From NCBI RefSeq assembly GCF_014203045.1, contig NZ_JACHIF010000010.1, forward strand, positions 186,001-250,000: DNA of 64,000 nucleotides, in the 5' to 3' direction. Of this stretch, positions 44,082-59,183 are shown one piece after another. Position numbers and translations under genes: made by a program. The stretch's first letter is position 1, and each line of letters starts with the position of its first letter. The stretch comes from Prosthecobacter dejongeii (GTDB taxonomy: Bacteria > Verrucomicrobiota > Verrucomicrobiia > Verrucomicrobiales > Verrucomicrobiaceae). The notes beneath the pieces were generated by a model. The model saw only the letters and a program-made list of their open reading frames with translations, searched no databases and was not told the DNA's origin.

Positions 44082-47000
44082 TCAAGGAGACTCCATCCGC
44101 ATTTGCCCAGATAAAACAGGGGTGTTTAAAGCCGGCTGCGACGGTGTTTCAGGCAGAGTGGGAAGCAGGAAGTACCCCAGCCCTTTGAGCCCCTCCGGGC
44201 CAGGGAAGATCAAGCCTTCGAAAACGCTTTTCCTTTGAATGGAGCCTGCACCGCCCGAGGGCCCTGGATCTAGCAAAAGAAAAGAACCGCTGATCTGCCC
44301 TGTTTTGACATTCAGTTTCAGCGTCACCTTCCCAGGATTTTTCGCCGTGCCTGCTTGATGCAGCAGCCATTTGTGACCTGAGGTGATCTGAAAAACGGTG
44401 TCTGGCGATGTCTCTGATTCCTCAATCCTGGCTCCGCTAAATCGCAACTTGGCGTTGTCAGGACCGTCTGTGAGTCCCAGAATCAGATTCGGGCTGACAG
44501 GAGGTAGATATCTCTGCCCCACGACCGAGAGGGTAAGGGGCCCAAACCCACGCGGATAAATCCGCCCACTCATGACGGGCCGGGACCAAGAAAGCCCACC
44601 CCCGATAGGGTTGTCCCGGTCAGCTTCTGGATCGGCACCCGTTTGGATCTGCAGAGTCCCCAAGAGAGAACCTTTCGAGGGTGCGGCATACAGCGTCTGG
44701 TAAACCAAAACCTGCCCCTGTGGCCCCAGGAAAGTGCTGCCCAGAATGGTTTCACCATCCGCCGTTTTACCGGCGAGTTTTGCTGAACCGGCCTTGCTGA
44801 TGGTGACGGAAGCAAAGCCTGTTCCTCCAGGAGTTTCGCCATCAGTCACTTCTTCCTCCAAAGGGATCAATCCTAAATTGTAAAGACCATCGAAGGCATC
44901 TGCTAAGTTTTCGCGCGAGTTCCAGGTGCTTTTCCAGCCTTCAAAAACGAGAGGCTCACCACCATCCGTCAGTGTGGCGGTCATCCGTGAATTTTCTGGA
45001 TTCATGACCAGGCCAAGCTGCAATGCTGGCAGCGGTGAGAGTTGAGACAAAGATACGCTCCCCATGGGTGTGCGACCTGGTAACAGGGACATGGAAAGTA
45101 ACCCGCCTTTGAAAAGAATCGGCTTCCGAGATCCCAGAGTCAGCTTCCCACTGAAACTCCCCGAAAGAGTGGTGACCAGATCCAATCGCCCGCCTAAGCC
45201 ACCGTTCGACACATGGCGTGGGATTGGTGCGACAAAGGTGCCGATACTGCCCTCTGGCAAGGGGCTAACCAAAAGAGTGACATTCACCACATCACTTCCC
45301 AGGAGATTTTTAGCCGTGATTTTAACTTGATAGGGAGTGATTTTGGAGGCTGTCACTCGTCCCGAAATGAGGCCTGTGAGCGCATCTATCTTTAATCCTG
45401 GTGGTAAGCCTGAAGCGGTAAAAGATGCCGGAGGTAAATGCTCATCTTCACTCACAGGAACCTCAAATTCATAGTCCTCTCCAACAATCGCCGGTGGCAA
45501 TGCATCTCCTGAAGCCAGCGGTGTGATGTCAGGTGGACCACTGACAACCACTAGATCCTGCGGGCCAATGACCACCTCGCCACCAGGGCCAGAAACCATG
45601 CAGACATAGCGCCCAGCCGCATCAGGTTCAGCCTCTGAGATAGAGAGCCTTTTGCCATCAGCAGAAAGCACTACCCTAGGGTTTCCAAGCACTGGCTCGC
45701 CATCGTGACTCCACGTCAACGCAAGGTTTTCGCCGGCGGTCTTCACGGACCAGGATGCCTTGCCCCCTTCTGCGATGATGATTTTTTGAATCAAATTTTC
45801 CGCCACGCCGATCTGGGCTTCTTCACTGAGGCTGGACTCAGTCGCTGCCACGGCCACCGAGTAGGCTCCAGCTTGGGCAAGTTGCACGGCAGGTAAGCGT
45901 AGGACAGCCTGCGTAGCCCCTCGGATCGCTTTGCCATCCTTCTGCCATTGATAACGCAGGGGTGGCTTTCCCATCGCCTGAACACTCATCACCACCTCAG
46001 AGCCCATGAAGGCCAACTGATGCTGGGGCTGCATCAGGATCTCCGGCTTCCCTCCCACCACAGTCAGTTCGGCGACTTGAGATAAAACCGTCTCCACCGG
46101 GTTTGTCACCCGCACTTGGTAAAAGCCCGCCTGGGCAGGAGTAAGACCAGACAAAACCAACACGGGGCCTGTTTGATTCACTAGGGGCTCCTCATCCTTC
46201 AGCCATTGGTAGCTGATCTCGTCAGAGCCCGTCACCTCGACTTCAAAAGTGGCGCTTTCGGTTTCGTTGATCTTTTTCGACAAGGGCTGCCGGATGAAGG
46301 TGATGCCCACAGGAGAAACCTGGATGGAAACTGTGGCGACCAAGGAACTGAGCTCCCCGTCACTGACTACAAAGGTAAAGTTATCTGGACCAGAATACCC
46401 TTGGGTGGATGTGTAAACCAACCCCGGCGGACTGCCTGCCAGCTTGCCATGTGCGGGAGGGCCAACTAAGGTAAATTCCAGAGCTGCGGTCTCCACATCC
46501 TGACCAGTCAGAGAGATGGTTACAGGAACGTGGTCGGGCGTGGTCACGGTCTGTGCCGAGGCCACTGGCTTATCGTTCACTGAGGTCACGCTTAGCGTGA
46601 CAGTGGCCGTATTTGAGTCCACTAACCCGTCATTGACTTTGAAGGAAAAATGGTCGCCTCCAAAATAGTTTGCCTCAGGAGTATAACTAAAAGATCCGGT
46701 GTCAGGATTGAAGTTGAGCGCACCATGATCAGGCCCCGAAACCAGGGAGTAAGACAAGGGTGTGTTCTCTGCATCCGCAGCCTGCGCAGTGCCCTGGATC
46801 ATCACATCTTCATTTTCGGTGAAGCTACCCGCCTGGGCAATCGGGGTTGTGTTAAAGGCAGTGATCTCCAGTTCCACCTCACCTGCGGAAACGGTATCAC
46901 TTCCAGCCTGCGAGGCACGCACGACCACAGTGCCATCCCGCGTAAAGCTCAACTGATTGCCATTTAACACGCCCGGCCCGCTAGCCACAGCCAATAGAAT

Positions 47001-50000
47001 GGGAGTCAACCCACGGCTTGAAACTGCATTCAAGGTCACTGTCGAAGTGTAAGGTAAAGACGCAGGAACTTGCCCGCTGAAGGCAAGGGTCTGCTCGGCT
47101 TTCACCACCGCGAACGTGCGGCTGACGGGATCTGCCGCAGCAAAGTCTGCACTGCCAGCCTGGCTAGCCTGGATCGTCACCGTGCCCACTGCGCTGAAGC
47201 TAACGGTGTTGCCATTCATCGTCGCAATATTTGCTCCAGAGGTGATGGTATAGCTCACTGGCAAACCACTGCTTGTCGTGGCATTCAGGATCAGTGGTGT
47301 GAGGCAAGTCTGCTGTGCGATGACAGGAAAGGTGATGGCCTGAGTGGTGACGGAGAATTGTGTGGGAAGTGCCGCATTCCAGGCCGTTTCATCGCCCCGC
47401 TGCCAGGCCAGGATCACCGCCGTGCTGCCGACGGGCCCCGTGTGCGTAAACACATCTCCTGACACACTGCCGTTTCCAGATGTGATCTCTAGCTCCACTG
47501 GCAAACCGCTGCTGGAAAGGATGCGCCCAGAACGAAAACCGGTGGGAGGAGGCAAGATAGTCTGCGGCTGCAATGCAGGCAAAATCGGTGCCTGAACAAA
47601 GGCCGAACGCCCACCCGCAGAGGTCAGCCGAAAAGACCCAGCCGAACCTGCCGTCCACAAAGAACCATCGGCACGCATGGCCACGATGTGCAGATTTCCC
47701 GCCTGCACCGCCACCCATCCCGTGCTGTTGCCAACCCGGCGAGGGGAAGAGACGGATCCCACCGTGGTCACCCCCTGCTGGAAAGCTAAATTATCTCCCC
47801 AAGTCCACAGAGAGCCATCTTGTTTCACCGCCGCAGTCCAGTTGACATTGCAGGCCACCTGCTTCCAATCCGTATCCGTTCCGACACGAACAGGAACATT
47901 CCTGTTGGTCGTATTACCCAGTCCTAACTGGCCACTGCTATTGCTGCCCCAAGCCCATAAGCTACCGTCTGTTTTGATGGCAAATGAAGCCGCCGCACCG
48001 GAGGAAGGCGAAACCCCGATTTGCGCCCAATCAGTGTCCGTTCCCACACGAGTGAATGATGTGCGTTGAACCGCATTCCCCAGCCCAAGTTGCCCCGAAG
48101 TGTTTAAACCTGTGGACCATAAAGAGCCGTCCGATTTTAGAGCTAGCGAATAAAAATTACCACAGGCCACTTTAGCCCAGATGTTTTCACTACCGATCTG
48201 GTTTGGACTGCTTCGACTTGTGGTTCCTCCATCTCCAAACTCCCCATTTGAATTGCTCCCCCATGCCCACAAAGTACCATCATTCCGAATGGCCAAGTTA
48301 TGAAAAGATCCGAGCGAGAATTCACGCCAACTACTCCCCACGGCCACAGCCGTGGGAGTAAGTCGAGGTACAGTTGAACTGTCACCGATCTGGCCCTGTG
48401 TATTCGCTCCCCACATCCACAGCGAACCATCTTGTTGAAGTCCGCCTGAGTGAGCTTGACCAGCTTCGACTGATTGCCAGTTAGTTAGGCTTCCGATTCG
48501 AATGAGATCTTGTGAAATGTAGGTATTGTTTCCAATCTGACCATTGAGCGACGAACCAAACGCCCAAAGCGAACCATCTCCACGTGTTATAAACGTGTGA
48601 CTAGTACGAGAACTGACTCGGCTGACAGCACCAGGTCCGATGGCACGCACAAGCTGACGCCCACTTTTGCCGGAATAGTCGCTGCCATCTCCCCACGCGA
48701 TCAGACTGCCATCAGCCTGCATAGCCAAACTATGAGAGGAACCTGCATGAATCTGGCGCCAGTCCTCGCCCGGCTGATTGATTCGCAAAGGAAACGATTC
48801 GTTCGCCAAGTTACTGTTACCTATTTGCGCTTCGAGGTTTCTGCCCCAAGCCCAGGCGGAACCGTCCCGTCGAATGGCAACACTGTGATTGCTGGACGCA
48901 TCTACATACACCCAGTCTGTCCCCACGCCAATCTGTACTGGGACATTTCTGGATGTGAAGGTTCCATAACCTAACTGCCCATTGCCATTTCCACCCCACG
49001 ACCAAAGTGTGCCATCCCGCCGAATTGCAAGACTGTGAAATGCACCCACAGTGACCTGCTTCCAATTCGTCGCAGAGCCGACTTGAACAGGACTGTTCGA
49101 GCTAACATTGCTCCCTAGACCTAATTGACCGCTTGTGCCCAATCCCCAAGCCCACAAAGTTCCATCCCTTTTGATTCCGAGGCTGTGACTAGTTCCAGTT
49201 GAAACGGACTGCCAGTCCGTAGCTAAGCCAATCTGAGTCAAACTCGTTCGGCTCGCGGTGCTGCCATCCCCCAACTGACCCGAGCTATTCGATCCGGTCC
49301 CCCACAATGTTCCATCCTCCTTCACCGCCAGGGAATGAGTGCTTCCGCCCGCAATGCTAACCCAACGACCGGATGAAATCTGAATCGGACTGTATTTTAG
49401 TATCGTCGTGCCATCCCCCAACTGACCTGATGTATTGCTCCCCCAGGCCCAAAGACTTCCATTCTTTTTAATTCCTAGCGAGTGGTTTCCACCTGCTTCC
49501 ACATCTGCCCAATCGAGCGCTGTTCCGGCAGTCTGAGGTACATACGATGTCGATGAACCACCCATTCCCAACTGCCCGATCCCTCCAAATCCCCAAGCCC
49601 ACAAACGACCATCCAAGCCGATGGCAAGTGTGTGTGAGCCCATGCTAGAAACACTCACCTTCGCAAACTGGAATGGCTGGTCGGTTAGGACAAACGTCAC
49701 AGTGACGGGAGTCGCGGCAACATACTGGCCATTCCCAGGCTGGGAGATTTGGAGGGTCACGGCCCCTGTGCCGTTGGGCGTGACGAGCCCGTCCGCATTG
49801 ACGGTCGCGGGCCCCGCGATCAGCGTGTAGGTCAAAGGCAGCCCGCTCGTAGCCACGGCAGGCAACCGGAAAGGGCCTGCACTCGTTGCCCTGGAGGAAA
49901 CCCTGCCCACTGAAATCGTCTGGGCAGGACCGGCTGCCGCCGTTGCCGTGGCGCTCAGGGAAACCGTGAATGGATCATCATCGGGATCATTGCTAGCGAT

Positions 50001-52652
50001 GCTGAGGGTGGCTGTATGGGAGCCCGTTCTGCGGGGGCTAAACCGGACCAAAAAGGGCAGGTCACTTGAGCTGGTCACCACAGCTCCCAGTGGCGATGAC
50101 ACCAGGGAAAAGGCGTCTGCATCCGCGCCAGAAACGGTGATGCCTTCCACCGTCAGCGACGTTCCAGGCACGCTGTTCCCCAGCTTCATCACGGAATCTG
50201 CCGGATTTCCCCCCAAAGGAATACTGCCAAAGCTAACGGTGCCGCTGCCATTAACCAGCACCTGATCCGACGCGTTTTTCACCACCAGTCCAGGAGCTAA
50301 CCCTGCAACTTGAAGACTTACCTGCCGAGTGTGTACCTGAGTGTTGACGGTGTCTGTGAATGAAATTTCGGCTGCATAATTTCCCATCTGCAGCCCTGCG
50401 GCGGCAGAGTTGAAACTCACCGTCACACTCACGCTCTGACCCGCGGCGAGAGTGCCCGATGCTGGAGATGCCTGCAACCAGGGCTGGTTGACCCCTGCAG
50501 TCCAAGAGACGGACTGGGGCGAGGTATTGCTCAACTGGTAGCTTTTAGAAGCGGGGCTGAATGGGCCACCTTGCGAACCTGCTGCGGCAAACACTTCCTC
50601 GGGCGTCACCGTTAAAGCTTGCGGCCAGACCGCTCCACTGATGATCAACGAGTAGCCCTGCGAGCCAAAGGTGAGACTACCGGTATGATCTACCGTAACG
50701 ACGTACTCCCCGGCCTGGGCCGGAGCAGACACCAGCACTTGCTCGACATTGTCCACGGTATTGATCCCCGTCGTCGCGACCGCCGTCAGTTGGGCGTTCG
50801 TCCAATCACCGACATAGGGCATGATAAAAGGACGATGAACCCCACCGGTAGGAGAGGTCAGCTTGAGATTGAGATCGTTGGTGAGGTCACGGGTACGATT
50901 GTCATGGGTCAAAAACGCAGCACCGGCGGGGTCCGTCCAGCAGAGAGTCACGCGAATGGGGCTCACGCCATCCCAGGTGAAGCGGTGGGTATCTGCACCT
51001 CCTTGCGCCAGCACCTGCTCAGTGATCTGCTGCATGCGCACGTTATCCGCTTCGGCTTTGATCAAATCCGCCGCAGCTTTGACGTTGATTAAGCCCCAGC
51101 CATACTCGTAATCGGGACCAGCACGGCCAATGTCGTTGGCCGTGTGAATCAGCAGTCCCTTGAGCGTGCTGGCCCGCATGGATTGGCCAGGAAAACGCTG
51201 CTGGAAATAATCCACCAGCAGCAGAGCGGAGCCGCTGGCATTCGGGGCCGCCATACTCGTCCCACTCATCGTACCGTATGCGCTGTCTCCGGTAGATATG
51301 GCTGAAGTAAGGCTGGCCCCATTCACTACGATGTCTGGTTTGATACGGCCATCGTCAGCGGGACCTGTGGAACTAAAGGCCGTAATTGTCCCATTGGCCG
51401 CATTCCTCACCCCTGCACTCACGGCATCATTCACGGCCCCGATGGTAATGACGTTTTTACAGGTCTTTTCATTGTCCAACACATCATACCCCAACTTGTA
51501 AACCCCATCACTGGCGGGGTGTTGAGCCGGATCATAAGCACGCGTCGTCCCTCCCGGCCCTTGCGCCCAGGTTCCACCCGTAGCTGGTGGGTCATCATTC
51601 CGATCATTGCCCGAAGACATGAACGATAAGAAATACGGCAGATTAAAGAGCAGTCCGTCCAAGGCCACACTGGTGGGGTCATAGCGGCCGAATCGAGTTT
51701 CGACATCGTTGGCAGGGTTTCCGTCATCCGTGAATGAGCCGTACCAAGTGGCCGTTTCAGGCCGCCAACCACTGATGAAACCATACGAATGGTTCGAGAT
51801 ATAGATCTTACCCGCCTCTGCTGGTGCCGCAGCGCCGGCCGCCACCATTTCAGAATTATCATTGGTCGAGTCATAGGCTGCAATGACGGCACCCGGGGCC
51901 ATCCCCAGTGCGGAGGCTGAGGAACCCCGTGCGATGATGGTGCCAGCCACATGGCTGGCATGATCTGACAAAGTGGTACTGCCATCCGCAATGGTGATAC
52001 GCACACCTGGGCCAAACTCTTGGTGGCTCACCCGGGGGATGCCACCAGCCTCCCAAAGGCCCAATTTGAGACCGCTGCCACTCACATTGTAGGGGGCTAT
52101 GGAACGAATTAAATTAGCACCCGAGCTAATGGCGGCATTCACGTTATGATCTGCCCGATAGAGCGGTCGATCTCCCTCAAAACCCACTAAAATGGCCTTG
52201 GTTCCGCCGGGTTCATGAACGACCAAAGGAATCCCTAACCGCTCTGCCTTGAGACGCGTGCTTGCCTGCTGAGAGTCTTCTATCTGGCGCAACTGCTTCA
52301 CCAATTGCTGACGTTTGACTGGATCTGTCAGATCAATCTTCTGTGACAATAAGGCCGCCGCAGGAGACAGAGCGGCGCTGGTTTCTTGAGCTACCTTGGC
52401 TGGCACCTCGACCTGCACTTTCGTCCCGTCTGGGGTAAAACTCTGTGCCACGGCACCTGCCTGCGGAGCTTCCTGGAGATGCTGAATAACACGGGAGGAG
52501 GTTTCTTCTGAAACCTGCTTATCCAAAGCTTTTTCAGCATTCACGGCAGTCGCCGGGGTGATGGGCGGAGCCTCTTTCGAGAAATTCCTCCAGACCGCTA
52601 GAGTCAAAACGATGACCACTAACAGAAAGAAGAGACGCGACTGATTTTGCAC
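44082..52652 (-). CDS. Giant secreted subtilase with RCC1 propellers and Ig/cadherin-like domains
   Basis: A 2856-residue exported protein with a GTG start. A signal/anchor helix (about 5-22) precedes a prodomain-like region and an S8 peptidase domain (about 190-520). Visible catalytic residues are His231 ([12 protein letters not shown]), oxyanion Asn349 and Ser466 ([11 protein letters not shown]); the Asp position holds Glu201 (LGLWEAGG). Beta-sandwich modules, including a choice-of-anchor/ASH-like unit, follow. Next come 14 RCC1 repeats with the unit [15 protein letters not shown], enough for two seven-bladed propellers. Then several MBG-, cadherin- and Ig-like domains and a He_PIG-like unit. 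The C-terminal beta-rich region ends [14 protein letters not shown]. It is probably a surface or secreted protease-adhesin; no close partner gene is seen. Confidence 0.9.
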
Positions 52653-54180: not shown

Positions 54181-54933
54181 TCAGTAAGTCGCGCGTCCCC
54201 CCGAAAGATCAAAAACAGCACCGGTGGTGAATGAACATTCCTCCGAGCACAGCCAAGCCACCAAAGCCGCTGCCTCATGCTTTTGGCCAAATCGGCCCAT
54301 GGGGATCTTCGAAAGCATGTAATCAATGTGAGCCTGCGTCATTTGCTGCAGGATGTCTGTTTCGATCACCGCTGGGGTGATGCAATTGACCAGGATGTTC
54401 GAGGTGGCCAGTTCCTTCCCCAAGCTCTTCGTCAGGGTGATCACCCCCGCCTTGGAGGCACTGTAATGGGCAGCATTGGGATTCCCCTCCTTCCCTGCCA
54501 CGGAGGCGACATTGACGATTCGACCATAGCCATTCGCCAGCAGATGCGGGATGACGGCCCGACAGCAGAGGAATGTCCCCGTGAGGTTGATGTCCATGAC
54601 CCGCCGCCAGTCCTCAGGACGCAGTTCCCAAGTCTTTGCATTGTTTCCCGCGATGCCAGCGTTGTTCACGAGGAGATCCACCTTGCCAAAGACAGCTAAA
54701 GTTTTCTGAGCAGCAGCTTCCGTGGATTCCGCGCTGGTAATGTCCACCTGGGCCGTAGTTACCTCACCTGAAGCCGAAAGCGACCTCTGCGCCTGCTCCA
54801 ACGCAGTGGCATCCACATCCCAAAGACAAACGGCCGCCCCGGACTGCAGCAGCCGTTCAGCGATGGCATACCCGATACCCCGGGCACTGCCGGTGACGAT
54901 GGCCTTTCGGCCAGAAAGAGAGAGAACGTTCAT
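54181..54933 (-). CDS. SDR-family oxidoreductase, FabG-like
   Basis: A 250-residue classical short-chain dehydrogenase/reductase with all core motifs: cofactor TGSARGIGYA (about 14-23), NNAG (90-93), catalytic Ser144, Tyr157 and Lys161 (YSASK) and the PG-type loop ITPAVIETDI. The acidic residue after strand 2 (WDVD) suggests NAD rather than NADP. It could be a 3-oxoacyl-ACP reductase or a sugar/alcohol dehydrogenase. It is transcribed divergently from the FkbH-ACP genes, sharing a 175-base region, which suggests the same biosynthetic role and common control. Confidence 0.88.
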   Translation of the reverse strand: MNVLSLSGRKAIVTGSARGIGYAIAERLLQSGAAVCLWDVDATALEQAQRSLSASGEVTTAQVDITSAESTEAAAQKTLAVFGKVDLLVNNAGIAGNNAKTWELRPEDWRRVMDINLTGTFLCCRAVIPHLLANGYGRIVNVASVAGKEGNPNAAHYSASKAGVITLTKSLGKELATSNILVNCITPAVIETDILQQMTQAHIDYMLSKIPMGRFGQKHEAAALVAWLCSEECSFTTGAVFDLSGGRATY

Positions 54934-55108
54934 GAAGAGCTTCCAACTACGAAAGTCCCCCTGCAGATCTTCAGAGGGAAAGTGGACGGAGGTTGCGTTT
55001 CCCCTTCAGATTTGCCCTCCAGCTCACCCTGCACCGCATTCATCCCTTGTGTTAAGCCACATGTTATCCTACTCACGACGCCAAGCCTCTTAAATCCTTT
55101 TTTAACCA

Positions 55109-56911
55109 GTGTCCTCGACGGTGACTCCAGCACGCAAGCCCTCAGCCGCCCTGACTCGGACGGAGTTCGTCCAGCAGTCTCAGGCCATCTTGGCTGAGGC
55201 AGATCCGAATTTGATCAAGAAAAGCATCGCTGTGCTTTCCACCTTCACGGTGGACTTGATGAAACCCTGCTTGGTCGTTGAAGCGGCCGCGCAAGGATTC
55301 TTGCTGGATCTATGGCTAGCTCCGTTTGGCCAGATCGAGCAACAAGCCTGCGATCCCTCCAGCCTGCTTTATCAGGCCCAGCCAGACGTGGTACTCATCC
55401 TGCCACGGATTGAAGATTGGGTCCCTGAAGCGGGGTATCATTTCATCAGCCTTTCACCCGAGGATCAAGAGGCACTGAAGACACGTGCCATTTCCAGGCT
55501 CCAACAGGTTGCAGAAGAGATCCGCTCGCGGACACAAGCCACCGTGCTGATGGCGAACTTCGCCCCCCTGCCCTGGCTGGCCGCTGGCATGGCAGACTCC
55601 ACTTTGGCCACGTCCCAGATCAGCTTCATTCAAAGCCTGAATGATGCCCTCGCCGCAGTCTGCGGCCGCCTTCCCGGCACGGCGATCCTGGATGCCGCAC
55701 GAGCAGCAGCGGAGGTGGGGATGCGCCACTGGAATGATGAGCGCATGACTTACCTGGCCAAGGCCCCGCTGAGCCTGGAAGCCATGAGCGCCCTAGCTGC
55801 GGCTTTTGCGCGCAGGCTACGCTCCCTCACGGTCACTCCGAAAAAATGCCTGGTGCTAGATTTAGACAACACCCTCTGGGGAGGCGTGCTGGGAGAGGCG
55901 GGACTGGAGGGGATCGCCTTAGGACCTGACTATCCAGGCAATGTGTTTGTGGATTTCCATAAACGCATCCTGGCCCTTCGCGACGCAGGCGTGTTACTGG
56001 CCGTTGCCAGCAAGAACAATGAGGTGGATGCCGTCCAAGCACTGGATCACCACCCGGCCTCCCTACTGCGTCGGCGGCACTTTTCAGCCTTTGAGGCTCA
56101 CTGGGAAGACAAGGCCACTAGCCTGCGACGCATCGCCAGTCACCTTAACATTGGCACAGACGCCCTCGTCTTTTTCGATGACAACCCGACCGAACGAGAA
56201 TGGGTGCGGGGGCAATTGCCCGAGGTCACCGTCATTGAGGCCCCAGCAAGCCCGCTCGGTTATGCCAAAGCGCTGGCTGAATGCGGCTGCTTTGACTTTG
56301 CCGCCCTGGTGAAGGAAGACCTCCTGCGCGCAGGATTGTATGAGCAGGAAGCTCTACGCAAGGAAATGCATACCCAAGCCACCTCCTTGGACGACTTCCT
56401 AGCCGGGCTCGAAATGAAAATGACCGCTGGGCTGGCCGATGAAACCGTGCTGCCCCGCATCGTCCAACTGCTCGGCAAAACGAATCAGTTTAACCTGACC
56501 ACCCGCCGCCACTCAGCCGCAGATCTGCAAGCGATGATGGATGGCGGGGCCCAAGTCCTCTGGTTCCGCGTGCAGGACAAATTCGGTGACAATGGCGTCG
56601 TTGGCATCCTCATCGCCACACCATCAGAAGAAAGTGGTGCTTGGTATCTGGATACCTTCCTCATGAGCTGTCGCGTCATTGGGCGAAAGGTGGAAACTGC
56701 CATGCTGGCCATCCTGGAAAAGCTACTCGCCAGCAAAGGCGCAACCACCTTGACCGCAGATTTTTTCCCTACGGCCAAAAACCAACCTGCGGCACTGTTT
56801 CTTCCTAACCACGGGTTTGAAAACAATGGCAAACAATGGATTTTACCGTTGGCAAAGCCGCGTCCTCTCCCTGACTGTCTTTCTCCTGAAGGTATTTTCA
56901 CCCAGTTATGA
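55109..56911 (+). CDS. FkbH-like HAD-IIIC family protein
   Basis: A 600-residue protein of the FkbH family, which dephosphorylates 1,3-bisphosphoglycerate and loads the glyceryl group on an acyl carrier protein thiol. The N-terminal half (about 50-230) is a GDSL/SGNH-like domain (DVVLILPRIEDW). The HAD phosphatase core begins at about 250 with the nucleophile motif VLDLDNTLWGGVLGE and ends with FFDDNPTEREWV. A C-terminal acetyltransferase-like domain (FRVQDKFGDNGVVGIL, LMSCRVIGRKVETAML) completes the usual FkbH layout. Start is GTG at 55109. Its stop codon overlaps the ACP start as ATGA, indicating coupled synthesis. Confidence 0.92.
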   Translation: MSSTVTPARKPSAALTRTEFVQQSQAILAEADPNLIKKSIAVLSTFTVDLMKPCLVVEAAAQGFLLDLWLAPFGQIEQQACDPSSLLYQAQPDVVLILPRIEDWVPEAGYHFISLSPEDQEALKTRAISRLQQVAEEIRSRTQATVLMANFAPLPWLAAGMADSTLATSQISFIQSLNDALAAVCGRLPGTAILDAARAAAEVGMRHWNDERMTYLAKAPLSLEAMSALAAAFARRLRSLTVTPKKCLVLDLDNTLWGGVLGEAGLEGIALGPDYPGNVFVDFHKRILALRDAGVLLAVASKNNEVDAVQALDHHPASLLRRRHFSAFEAHWEDKATSLRRIASHLNIGTDALVFFDDNPTEREWVRGQLPEVTVIEAPASPLGYAKALAECGCFDFAALVKEDLLRAGLYEQEALRKEMHTQATSLDDFLAGLEMKMTAGLADETVLPRIVQLLGKTNQFNLTTRRHSAADLQAMMDGGAQVLWFRVQDKFGDNGVVGILIATPSEESGAWYLDTFLMSCRVIGRKVETAMLAILEKLLASKGATTLTADFFPTAKNQPAALFLPNHGFENNGKQWILPLAKPRPLPDCLSPEGIFTQL

Positions 56912-57147
56912 CTCCCGAACAGACTCAAAAACTCCACTCCGTACTCTCCGCCTTGCTCAATGTTCCCGCGAGCGAAATCAACGATGACCTCAGCCCCGAC
57001 GTCCTGCCCGCTTGGGATTCTGTGACCCACCTGAGCCTCGTCATGGCGGTGGAAGAGACCTTCAATGTCTCCTTTACTCCCGAAGAGACGCTGGACATGA
57101 CCTCAGTGAAACTCATTCGCCTCATGCTTGAAGAAAAGGGCATCTAA
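56908..57147 (+). CDS. Acyl carrier protein
   Basis: A 79-residue four-helix carrier. The phosphopantetheine-attachment serine is Ser38 in PAWDSVTHLSLVMAVEETF; the length and flanking acidic helix II fit type II ACPs. The WDS motif rather than DSL of fatty-acid ACPs is common in carriers that work with FkbH. It starts inside the FkbH stop codon (ATGA overlap), so it is the likely acceptor of the glyceryl group. No dedicated phosphopantetheinyl transferase is in the window. It is followed by a 101-base gap before the acyltransferase gene. Confidence 0.93.
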   Translation: MTPEQTQKLHSVLSALLNVPASEINDDLSPDVLPAWDSVTHLSLVMAVEETFNVSFTPEETLDMTSVKLIRLMLEEKGI

Positions 57148-57248
57148 GCTGTCAGTTTAGACATTTTTCGACAAAACCGTTTGTGGAATGATGTTGCAAA
57201 GCGCAGGGAATCGTCGCTCAAAATGCTTACCCCTTTCTCAGCGGCCTC

Positions 57249-57848
57249 ATGAACGACCAGGATCTGTCTCTCGCTAAAACACTAGGAGAACTGCGCACGC
57301 TTTTATTCTGCGATCTCTTCCGCCAGGATGGAAAGGGCGGATGGGGCCACTTCATGTTCCATTTTTTCCGAAACCCAGGCTACCGTTACGTTGCTTTGTT
57401 TCGGATTTGTCAGTTCCTGCGTCAGTCGAAACTGCGCAAGTTTACGCTCTACTTCCCGATGCTCTACTGGTTTCAGCGCGTGAGCACCATCTATGGAGTG
57501 CGCGTGCCACTGACTTGCCGCATTGGCCCAGGGTTTTACTTGGCGCACTGGGGCTGTATATGGGTGAATCCTGGGGTCACGGTGGGCAAAAATTTGACAC
57601 TGACGCAAGGCGTAACATTGGGCCGGGCCAGCCGTGGTCCCACCTCAGGGGTGCCTACCCTGGGCGACAATGTTTATGTCGGTCCTGGGGCCTGCGTTTC
57701 TGGCACCGTCAAGATTGGCAATCATGCTTTGATTTCCGCCAACTCTGTCGTTCTCCAGGATGTTCCTGAAAATGGCGTGGTTATCGGGGTGCCCGCCCGC
57801 TTATTTTCCACCAGCGGCTCAGAGAGCTACGTTACCAACACTATCTAG
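57249..57848 (+). CDS. Hexapeptide-repeat acyltransferase, serine acetyltransferase-like
   Basis: A 199-residue left-handed beta-helix acyltransferase. Hexapeptide turns are visible from about residue 85: IGPGFYLAHWGCIWVNPGVTVGKN, LTLTQGVTLG, LGDNVYVGPGACVSGTVKIGNHALISANSVVLQDVPENGVVIGVPA. The catalytic His is in FYLAHWG, as in CysE. The helical N-terminal domain (about 20-75) contains HFFRNPGYRYVALFRICQFL, typical of this subgroup. Serine acetyltransferase activity is possible, but the context (FkbH, ACP, MaoC/SDR) suggests acylation of a sugar or the pathway product. It follows the ACP gene by 101 bases. Confidence 0.88.
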   Translation: MNDQDLSLAKTLGELRTLLFCDLFRQDGKGGWGHFMFHFFRNPGYRYVALFRICQFLRQSKLRKFTLYFPMLYWFQRVSTIYGVRVPLTCRIGPGFYLAHWGCIWVNPGVTVGKNLTLTQGVTLGRASRGPTSGVPTLGDNVYVGPGACVSGTVKIGNHALISANSVVLQDVPENGVVIGVPARLFSTSGSESYVTNTI

Positions 57849-57916
57849 ACCGGAGACAGGATTGTGCTTTGTTTGCAGCCACACCTGAGTCCCTAAAAAA
57901 TCGCTCACTTTCCCCT

Positions 57917-59092
57917 ATGATCGAGGCTTTCAAGCAAGGAATGGTTTTCAGTGAAGAGGTCCACCTCTCTCCTGAATTTGTGGAACGCTTTGCCGAGTTT
58001 TCAGGGGATCGCAATCCAGTCCACCTCAAGACGGATGCTGCACGCGGTTTTGGTTACGCGCGCCCGATCGCTCACGGGGCGATCCAGACGGCCATCGTTT
58101 CCCGCCTCATTGGTATGAAGGTCCCCGGCCCAGGCGCGGTGTGGATGAGCCAGTCCATGGAGTGGACCAAGCCGATTTTCGTCGGTGAAACCGTGCGGAT
58201 CGAGGCAGAGATCATGGAAGTCTCCACAGGTGCCTCCGTGCTGCATCTGGCGCTTCGCGGTTTTAATAAACAGTCTGAGCCTGTGATGACAGGCCAAGCC
58301 AAGGTCAAAATGGCCACCAGTCTCGCGGTGGTAGAGGCTACGCCCAAACAAACAGAGACGCGCGTGGCTCTGGTCACGGGTGGTTCACGTGGTATCGGGG
58401 CTGCCACCGCTATCGCTCTGGCTGAGGCAGGCTTTCACGTGGCCATCAGCTACCATTCCAATCAGGCCGCCGCCGAGGAAATTTCTCACAGCATTCGAGA
58501 GAAAGAAGTGCGCTGCCAAGCTTACAGCATTGACCTCTCCAAAGAAGACGCAGCAGAAGAACTCACGAAGAGAGTCATTCGCGATTTCGGGAGTGTGGAT
58601 GTCATTGTCCACTGCGCCAGCCAGCCGCTGAAAAACCTCAGTGTACAAGAACTTTCCCCCACTGATTATCGCGACTGCTGGCGGGTGCATGTGGGGGCTG
58701 CGACAGCCTTGGTGAAAGCGGCGGCCCCGGGCATGATCGAGCGCCGATTTGGTCGCTTCATCTTCCTTGGCACCTCTTACCTCTTTGGCCCACCGCCGGC
58801 GAAACTGGCCGCTTATGTCAGTGCCAAGCAGGCGCTGTGGGGAGCGGTGCGCTGCATGGCCCAGGAACTCGGGCCGCAACAGATCACCACAAACATGATC
58901 TCCCCCGGCATGACAGTCACGGAACTGACGGACAATGTCCCTGCGCGTCTGAAAGAGGCCGAGGCCCGCAAGGTGCCGCTGCGTCGCTTGGCCGTGCCGG
59001 AAGACGTTGCCTCCGTAGTCGCCTTTCTCGCCAGCGATGCTTCCGCCTACATGAACGGCCAAAACATCCCGCTAACGGGTGGACCAGTTTAA
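57917..59092 (+). CDS. MaoC-like hydratase fused to SDR
   Basis: A 391-residue fusion. The N-terminal hot-dog domain (about 1-150) has the MaoC/R-hydratase active site FSGDRNPVHLKTDAARGFG (Asp31 and His36) and APIAHGAIQTA-like helix. The C-terminal SDR (about 165-391) has VTGGSRGIGAATAIAL, the VHCAS variant of NNAG, SYLFGPPPAKLAAYVSAKQAL with Tyr and Lys, and the terminal NGQNIPLTGG. Together they would hydrate an enoyl-thioester and reduce or oxidise at C3. ATG 57917 is chosen over the TTG at 57869; the leader is TTTCCCCT. It probably acts on the ACP-bound product of the cassette. Confidence 0.88.
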   Translation: MIEAFKQGMVFSEEVHLSPEFVERFAEFSGDRNPVHLKTDAARGFGYARPIAHGAIQTAIVSRLIGMKVPGPGAVWMSQSMEWTKPIFVGETVRIEAEIMEVSTGASVLHLALRGFNKQSEPVMTGQAKVKMATSLAVVEATPKQTETRVALVTGGSRGIGAATAIALAEAGFHVAISYHSNQAAAEEISHSIREKEVRCQAYSIDLSKEDAAEELTKRVIRDFGSVDVIVHCASQPLKNLSVQELSPTDYRDCWRVHVGAATALVKAAAPGMIERRFGRFIFLGTSYLFGPPPAKLAAYVSAKQALWGAVRCMAQELGPQQITTNMISPGMTVTELTDNVPARLKEAEARKVPLRRLAVPEDVASVVAFLASDASAYMNGQNIPLTGGPV

Positions 59093-59124: not shown

Positions 59125-59159
59125 AAAAAAACCTCAAACACGCGAACGTGTTTGAGGTT
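59125..59159. terminator. Bidirectional terminator between the SDR fusion and hpf
   Basis: A 13-bp stem (AACCTCAAACACG 59130-59142, CGTGTTTGAGGTT 59147-59159) with a CGAA tetraloop. On the minus strand it is followed by TTTTTT (plus-strand A run at 59125-59131), so it serves hpf well. It also lies 38 bases beyond the MaoC/SDR stop codon. Confidence 0.9.
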
Positions 59160-59183
59160 CTGGGAAAGACTCAATCGTGAAGA

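Follow-up and report, generated by a model that had tools for sequence, protein, structure and literature searches.

What would an FkbH-type enzyme and its acyl carrier protein (ACP) serve where no ketosynthase is encoded beside them? The question is raised by four genes on a 64,000-nucleotide stretch of the Prosthecobacter dejongeii genome (6.0 Mb in 22 contigs), here called the window, which corresponds to positions 186001–250000 of contig C10 (NZ_JACHIF010000010.1). The genes, all in the same direction and extending from 55109 to 59092 of the window, encode an FkbH-type glyceryl transferase/phosphatase, an ACP, a hexapeptide acyltransferase and a MaoC-type dehydratase fused to a FabG-like short-chain dehydrogenase/reductase (SDR). 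Judged from their sequences, they would form, with a probability of about 0.58, a free-standing acyl-donor module making a lactoyl (or glyceryl) group for an amino sugar of a surface glycan. Transfer of the ACP thioester to a sugar or other acceptor by the hexapeptide enzyme had already been suggested in the initial annotation of this DNA, and acyl transfer to a sugar is still the best reading, since the catalytic residues, those of FkbH and the ACP among them, are kept, no ketosynthase is found nearby and genes for sugars and glycans frequently surround the core of the cassette in relatives. That annotation left MaoC and SDR without a role; as both recur with this clade of FkbH, the glyceryl group is probably altered before transfer, most likely to lactoyl.

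The five open reading frames first annotated here, those of the cassette and of a divergent SDR upstream of it, were recovered at their positions with matching families (SDR, FkbH, ACP, hexapeptide, MaoC plus SDR), and the four-base overlap noted between the FkbH and ACP genes is real, ATGA at 56908–56911 being common to both. The FkbH protein scored 305 bits against TIGR01686 (cut-off 146.65) and contains the HAD motif DxDNT as well as the cysteine within SCRV-GR. Residues Asp251, Asp253 and Cys521 were invariant in alignments of 16 and of 24 sequences. The predicted model of this protein (mean pLDDT 90) was closest to 3slr (BF1531; 28% identity) over the N-terminal and HAD parts, with further fold matches to MDP-1 HAD chains and, for the remaining part, to GNAT chains. 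The ACP reached 21.9 bits against the PP-binding profile PF00550 (cut-off 20.8), and its residues Trp36, Asp37 and Ser38 were invariant in 14 linked ACPs. Both the serine and the transferase expected of a discrete ACP partner are thus present, namely Ser38 and the product of one ACPS gene in the genome, which could modify the ACP. One other FkbH hit of this genome, at C7:196172, scored 22.9 bits, below the cut-off, and belonged to no NCBIfam family at E 1e-10.

The hexapeptide enzyme scored under the equivalog cut-offs for EpsC and CysE and aligned with solved serine acetyltransferases, including the histidine of their LDH motif, which we take to be catalytic. In the fusion protein the MaoC part has the Asp and His of D-x-N-P-x-H, here in the form GDRNPVH, and the SDR part combines the cofactor motif TGGSRGIG with a tyrosine and a lysine; Asp47, His52, Tyr316 and Lys320 (numbering of the 407-aa open reading frame) were invariant in eight fused proteins. 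The MaoC motif was found in 25 of the 29 loci with both partners, and the remaining four (L066, L107, L124 and L132) keep Asp and His with other residues between them. The nearest solved structures to the MaoC part are (R)-specific enoyl-CoA hydratases (5cpg and 1iq6), enzymes that accept short acyl chains, and the nearest fold to the SDR part is FabG. The fusion seems more likely to begin at ATG 57917 (391 aa) than at TTG 57869 (407 aa), because the copy in the same-genus locus L028 has 391 aa and five of seven other fused relatives start at about this point; the proteins of L066 and L072 have N-terminal extensions of their own.

These enzymes may be arranged into a route whose substrates, products, order of steps and acceptor are predicted. 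FkbH would take D-glyceryl from 1,3-bisphosphoglycerate, release phosphate and load the ACP, giving glyceryl-ACP. The C3 hydroxyl of this thioester is the group that a MaoC dehydratase removes, so that MaoC fits as a dehydratase step: loss of the 3-hydroxyl with the C2 proton would give 2-hydroxyacryloyl-ACP, an enol that would tautomerise to pyruvoyl-ACP, and reduction of the 2-oxo group by the FabG-like domain would yield lactoyl-ACP. The hexapeptide enzyme may then acylate the amino group of a nucleotide sugar, itself bound for incorporation into a surface glycan, with lactoyl, or with glyceryl where the dehydration step does not take place. The gene types needed for lactoyl-ACP (FkbH, ACP, dehydratase and reductase) are all present and linked, their regiochemistry being predicted. 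A dehydratase acting on glycerate and a ketoreductase acting on the α-ketone were reportedly described by He et al. in 2014. For lankacidin, either pyruvoyl-ACP or lactoyl-ACP has been put forward as the starter, each derived from 1,3-bisphosphoglycerate (PMC6162330). In bacterial polysaccharides, lactyl groups in amide linkage are uncommon but have been described on Rha4N, Fuc3N and pseudaminic acid (Pse), and N-glyceryl is found on Qui4N (PMC9912281). A polysaccharide of S. litorea, presumably Simiduia litorea, carries N-lactoyl (PMC9912281), and the capsule of Psychrobacter marincola has (R)-lactoyl on Pse (PMC7281560). A broader proposal, to which we give slightly less than even odds, is that a portable FkbH-ACP-MaoC-SDR module of many phyla converts 1,3-bisphosphoglycerate into lactoyl-ACP, with which surface sugars are N-acylated. 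Neither CoA thioesters nor the extension of fatty-acid or polyketide chains would be involved, and the module would be the missing source of rare N-lactoyl groups, here probably on Pse.

Recurrence of the set was followed in 100 FkbH loci, made up of 20 regions fetched from the family and 80 named loci, the latter being the best by similarity of at least 560, a non-random choice with many metagenome bins. Locus L047 was dropped as lying under the FkbH threshold, and L060, L062 and L065 as being the same contigs as L029, L036 and L037; in 31 of the 96 loci that remain, the sequence beside FkbH is shorter than 3 kb on one side or both, and the MaoC and SDR profiles were built from members of this same locus set. 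Within the family, FkbH was matched in 22 of 68 genomes. Five of the 25 family matches (the window's own locus, G047:C120, G064, G038 and G001:C525) were not fetched wide, and FkbH, ACP and a MaoC/SDR fusion stood together in nine of the 20 regions that were. In a tenth region, the dropped L047, a MaoC/SDR-like protein of 396 aa adjoins an FkbH that is more distant. Across the 96 loci, MaoC and SDR lie within 3 kb of FkbH in 37 (14 short fusions, nine separate pairs and 14 long fusions of about 470–550 aa), four of them with the partner on the opposite strand (L038, L075, L109 and L111), and in 77 the ACP profile has a match no more than 1.5 kb from FkbH. MaoC matches number 38 within 1.5 kb of FkbH versus three across a further 1,146 kb of flank. 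Two gene orders occur, FkbH-ACP-MaoC-SDR and MaoC-SDR-FkbH-ACP; MaoC and SDR precede FkbH in clostridial and Nitrospinota loci (L083, L118, L119, L085 and L132), and FkbH comes first elsewhere. The set recurs across many phyla and was seen in one archaeal metagenome contig; a tblastn search of plasmids with the MaoC/SDR protein (E 1e-25) returned three records, matched in the SDR part only.

The evolutionary relatedness of these loci was judged from a quick maximum-likelihood tree of 96 FkbH proteins, from which L032, whose contig ends right after FkbH, was left out. With the stricter label of same strand and E limits (30 rows including the window), the partner set needs 14 changes on this tree, at least 10 of them forced by starred branches, versus 25.8 in shuffles. 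The set is clustered on the FkbH tree, yet has been gained or lost repeatedly; in the window's own starred clade, 12 of 13 rows have MaoC and SDR. The varying order and the repeated gains or losses together make the linkage look maintained by function. In 14 of the 96 loci (L079, L086, L097, L121, L123, L125 and others) the long MaoC-SDR fusion has an unannotated middle stretch. In a Lindowbacteria bin (L137:7448–8515) a 355-aa protein directly after FkbH matches the ACP profile and has a Pfam SDR at 112–352, an apparent ACP-reductase fusion in which Pfam shows no PP-binding domain.

The surroundings of the set were judged from a hand-picked, non-random sample of 60 neighbour proteins scanned with Pfam (E 0.001), of which 58 were counted, the L137 and L097 proteins being left out as partners. 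Glycosyltransferases, sugar-nucleotide enzymes, deacetylases, flippases or acyltransferases accounted for 24 of the 58, and nine were methyltransferases. L033 and L036 have between them a UDP-GlcNAc 2-epimerase, a UDP-sugar dehydrogenase, a glycosyltransferase, methyltransferases and Acyl_transf_3, and L030 has two glycosyltransferases, methyltransferases and an asparagine-synthase-like protein. Other neighbours are RmlD, GT2 and a deacetylase (L090), an AAC(3)-like acyltransferase, a methyltransferase, a hexapeptide protein and GT2 (L107), a PIG-L deacetylase and GT2 (L132), GT2 (L085), a double GNAT (L061), flippases (L066 and L095) and a GDP-mannose-dehydratase-like protein beside MotA/MotB (L083). 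The type of acyltransferase changes between loci (hexapeptide, Acyl_transf_3, GNAT or AAC(3)-like) while FkbH-ACP-MaoC-SDR stays, as is expected if the donor is constant and the acceptors differ. Two family-less proteins (about 313–331 and 368–372 aa; L033:6279–8387, L036:10732–12798 and relatives) lie between the UDP-GlcNAc 2-epimerase and FkbH in L032–L036, the second being split in L035; those upstream of FkbH in L033, designated UnkX and UnkY, gave chance-level matches only, even at E 1. On pSymB of Sinorhizobium meliloti (L200:5636–10671) an MBOAT protein, an ACP and an FkbH-type HAD hydrolase are encoded about 5 kb from capsular polysaccharide genes, and an FkbH match is present in 40 Sinorhizobium plasmid records.

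An amino sugar of the Pse pathway is the leading candidate acceptor, a tentative assignment with the odds still against it. In this genome PseB, PseC, PseI and PseF scored over their cut-offs and PseG weakly, and PseH had no match at E 0.001. The PseH model gave no match over its cut-off and 35 weak ones in 48 same-genus genomes; since it matched 13 of 14 control genomes, one of them over the cut-off, it is an unspecific detector. The Pse pathway of this genome is split, with PseB-methyltransferase-PseC on contig C7 (L212:9750–12913) and PseI, an HMGL-like protein, a methyltransferase, an amidohydrolase, an ATP-grasp-like protein, the weak PseG, PseF and NanM on C4 (L214:9037–18727). The Pse cluster of G016, from the same genus (L046:6572–10917), includes three genes on one strand, for an ACP, for FkbH and for a protein of 740 aa that combines an AAC(3)-like acyltransferase domain with DUF4910; two opposite-strand reading frames separate these from PseI. 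Among the 18 genomes with PseC over cut-off, the PseB-methyltransferase-PseC block occurs only in this genome (G000), G013 and G016, and FkbH is present in three of three genomes with the block versus three of 15 without it (Fisher p 0.025), an association that is suggestive only, since two of the three block genomes are closely related and contig ends truncate some of the 20 PseC loci.

Several observations weigh against the lactoyl-donor module, or against Pse as its acceptor. The Pse genes are on contigs C4 and C7 and the cassette on C10; the FkbH of G016 is distantly related and lacks MaoC/SDR; and G017 has Pse genes with a short PseG, no FkbH and no recognised PseH near PseC, which weakens a missing PseH as proof of the acceptor. 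PseH sets N7 of Pse. The lactoyl group of P. marincola sits on N5 (PMC7281560). Fifteen of the 58 neighbours had no family and ten were other, unrelated or unclear, the ill-fitting ones including an FG-GAP protein (L061), CysS (L119) and an AMP-binding enzyme (L063). The conservation looked for on the strength of the initial annotation holds for FkbH, ACP and MaoC/SDR, in the family and in other phyla, but not for the hexapeptide enzyme, which adjoins the core in only two of the nine short-fusion family loci fetched (L028 and L030). Ketosynthases encoded elsewhere in the genome could act in trans. Finally, 57 of the 96 FkbH loci have no MaoC within 3 kb, 22 of these holding less than 3 kb on at least one side, and two more have MaoC without SDR; many FkbH/ACP pairs function without such partners.

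The last count also suits a plain glyceryl decoration, close to the idea first put forward for this locus, in which the hexapeptide enzyme would transfer glyceryl unchanged and MaoC/SDR would act, for example, on the sugar or another thioester. Glyceric acid amides of Qui4N (PMC9912281) and di-O-methylglyceryl-Pse (PMC3068675) exist, the FkbH-domain gene cj1302 lies in the Campylobacter flagellar locus (PMC7099621), and several methyltransferases accompany the Pse genes of this genome. This explanation would need neither MaoC nor SDR, yet both are the steadiest partners after ACP (in all but one row of the starred set) and their active sites are kept, so that we regard it as unlikely. It is improbable that the acyl-ACP is a concealed polyketide or fatty-acid starter, extended by a ketosynthase from another locus, with MaoC/SDR processing the β-keto product. 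The genome does contain six PF00109 matches, among them a frame of 2583 aa in which KS and PP-binding domains are both matched, but the module recurs in glycan clusters without a ketosynthase, and ketosynthase probes (one FabF and one FabH) match in two of the 96 loci, L136 and L030, the match in L030 being to the very FabH from which the FabH probe was taken, a gene on the opposite strand some 4 kb from FkbH. At the locus itself, the eight annotated proteins between 52803 and 60670 include no ketosynthase, acyltransferase (AT) domain or thioesterase, just as had been noted before, and a polyketide cluster was rejected on the basis of this and of the probe matches. Still less probable is a hydroxymalonyl-type route, by which dehydrogenases would oxidise the C3 hydroxyl of glyceryl-ACP, in the manner of methoxymalonyl-ACP operons, to an acidic C3 unit: neither an acyl-CoA-dehydrogenase-like enzyme, which we take FkbI to be in those operons, nor an O-methyltransferase was present among the annotated cassette and flanking genes, no second dehydrogenase is found among the cassette genes, and the MaoC dehydratase would have no task. 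Operons of FkbH, ACP and dehydrogenase are known (PMC7489565), and an SDR is present here.

The borders of the cassette were defined by comparison with the same genus. In G013 the entire block is found at the identical junction, with identities of 80% (FkbH), 84% (ACP), 73% (acyltransferase), 79% (MaoC) and 81% (reductase), lower than in the flanking aminotransferase (99%), divergent SDR (93%), hpf (97%) and lptB (92%), so that the cassette evolves faster than its flanks. Among the loci seen, only this genome and G013 have the aminotransferase and hpf no more than a few kb apart, and the locus in the window is a rearranged junction. Such a junction would favour chance neighbours with unrelated tasks, a notion that is highly improbable and already contradicted by the joint occurrence of FkbH, ACP and MaoC/SDR in family regions and several other phyla, chance being excluded by this recurrence and the conserved block in G013. 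The G+C content of the cassette (0.54–0.59) is near that of the window (0.56), hence composition gives no sign of recent import. The divergent SDR, counted as a fifth member at first, was rejected because G046 and G014, in which FkbH has no match, also have it (88% and 80%) immediately upstream of this aminotransferase. A lipopolysaccharide (LPS) target argued from nearby lptB and kdsA was likewise rejected: lptB adjoins hpf in all 30 same-genus hpf loci fetched (45 genomes have hpf), and in 28 of these loci the flank, of up to 1.5 kb, is free of cassette genes. Since the hpf-lptB pair thus occurs without the cassette, proximity to LPS genes does not argue for LPS as the target. A hairpin sits between the cassette and the convergent hpf, and, read on the plus strand, the T tail is not on the cassette strand; the terminator-like pattern scan gave 10 sites in the region versus 4.4 expected. 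On the other side, a 2856-aa reading frame on the minus strand (44082–52652) has, by eye, a subtilisin-like stretch, RCC1-like repeats and Ig-like repeats.

Table 1. Features at the cassette locus, in window coordinates.
Feature	Position	Strand	Details
FkbH-type glyceryl transferase/phosphatase	55109..56911	+	600 aa; TIGR01686, FkbH_N, HAD-IIIC (D251, D253), GNAT-like C-terminal part (C521)
Acyl carrier protein	56908..57147	+	79 aa; PF00550; Ser38 in AWDSVTH; start inside FkbH stop (ATGA)
Hexapeptide acyltransferase, CysE/EpsC/WcaB-like	57249..57848	+	199 aa; PF00132; proposed to move the acyl group from ACP to a sugar
MaoC-type (R)-hydratase/dehydratase fused to FabG-like reductase	57917..59092	+	391 aa; PF01575, PF13561; listed reading frame starts at TTG 57869
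Hairpin, 15 pairs	59128..59161	-	pattern scan; T tail on hpf strand; consensus match only
FabG-like SDR, divergent neighbour outside the cassette	54181..54933	-	adjoins the aminotransferase in G046 and G014 too, where FkbH is unmatched

In the open-access literature, among the matches listed, no paper was found that describes FkbH-ACP-MaoC-SDR for glycans, which is weak evidence of absence, nor one on how the N-lactoyl and N-glyceryl sugars of bacterial polysaccharides are made, nor anything joining the lactoyl-ACP chemistry of polyketide starters to N-lactoyl sugars. Each enzyme and each chemistry is already known, and the new part is their free-standing, glycan-linked combination. If lactoyl-ACP is indeed made outside the polyketide line, the set would offer a gene signature for N-lactoyl and N-glyceryl decorations and make glycan structure predictable from sequence, and the starter-unit chemistry of antibiotics would be linked to cell-surface glycans by an acyl-donor route drawn straight from glycolysis.

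Among known systems, the proposed chain from 1,3-bisphosphoglycerate to pyruvoyl-ACP or lactoyl-ACP resembles that of the lankacidin starter and He et al. 2014 (PMC6162330). The lankacidin chain feeds a polyketide synthase. The cassette, by contrast, has no ketosynthase nearby, has as its dehydratase just one MaoC domain, joined to a FabG-like reductase, and in relatives is found largely in the setting of glycan synthesis. The glycerate operon of tetronates (tetromadurin: FkbH, ACP, FabH-like, Agg4 and Agg5) shares the stand-alone FkbH and ACP proposed for glyceryl-ACP (PMC7489565), but in the cassette no FabH-like enzyme and no equivalents of Agg4 or Agg5 were recognised. Methoxymalonyl-ACP operons of the FK520 type likewise combine FkbH, a discrete ACP and an oxidoreductase (PMC7489565), and the cassette has MaoC instead of their acyl-CoA-dehydrogenase-like enzyme and O-methyltransferase. 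Closer in context is the flagellin glycosylation locus of Campylobacter, where an FkbH-domain gene, cj1302, lies in a glycan locus (PMC7099621) and a three-carbon hydroxyacyl group, di-O-methylglyceryl, is found on Pse and depends on Cj1295 (PMC3068675); in the accessible parts of these papers cj1302 is not assigned to that group and MaoC/SDR is not mentioned. On a Niveispirillum plasmid (L201:11814–13262) the MaoC/SDR fusion is long (482 aa), and a WcbI-type enzyme, between the ACP and the fusion, replaces the hexapeptide enzyme, but the plasmid has the same row as the cassette: FkbH (HAD-IIIC phosphatase), ACP, acyltransferase and MaoC+SDR fusion.

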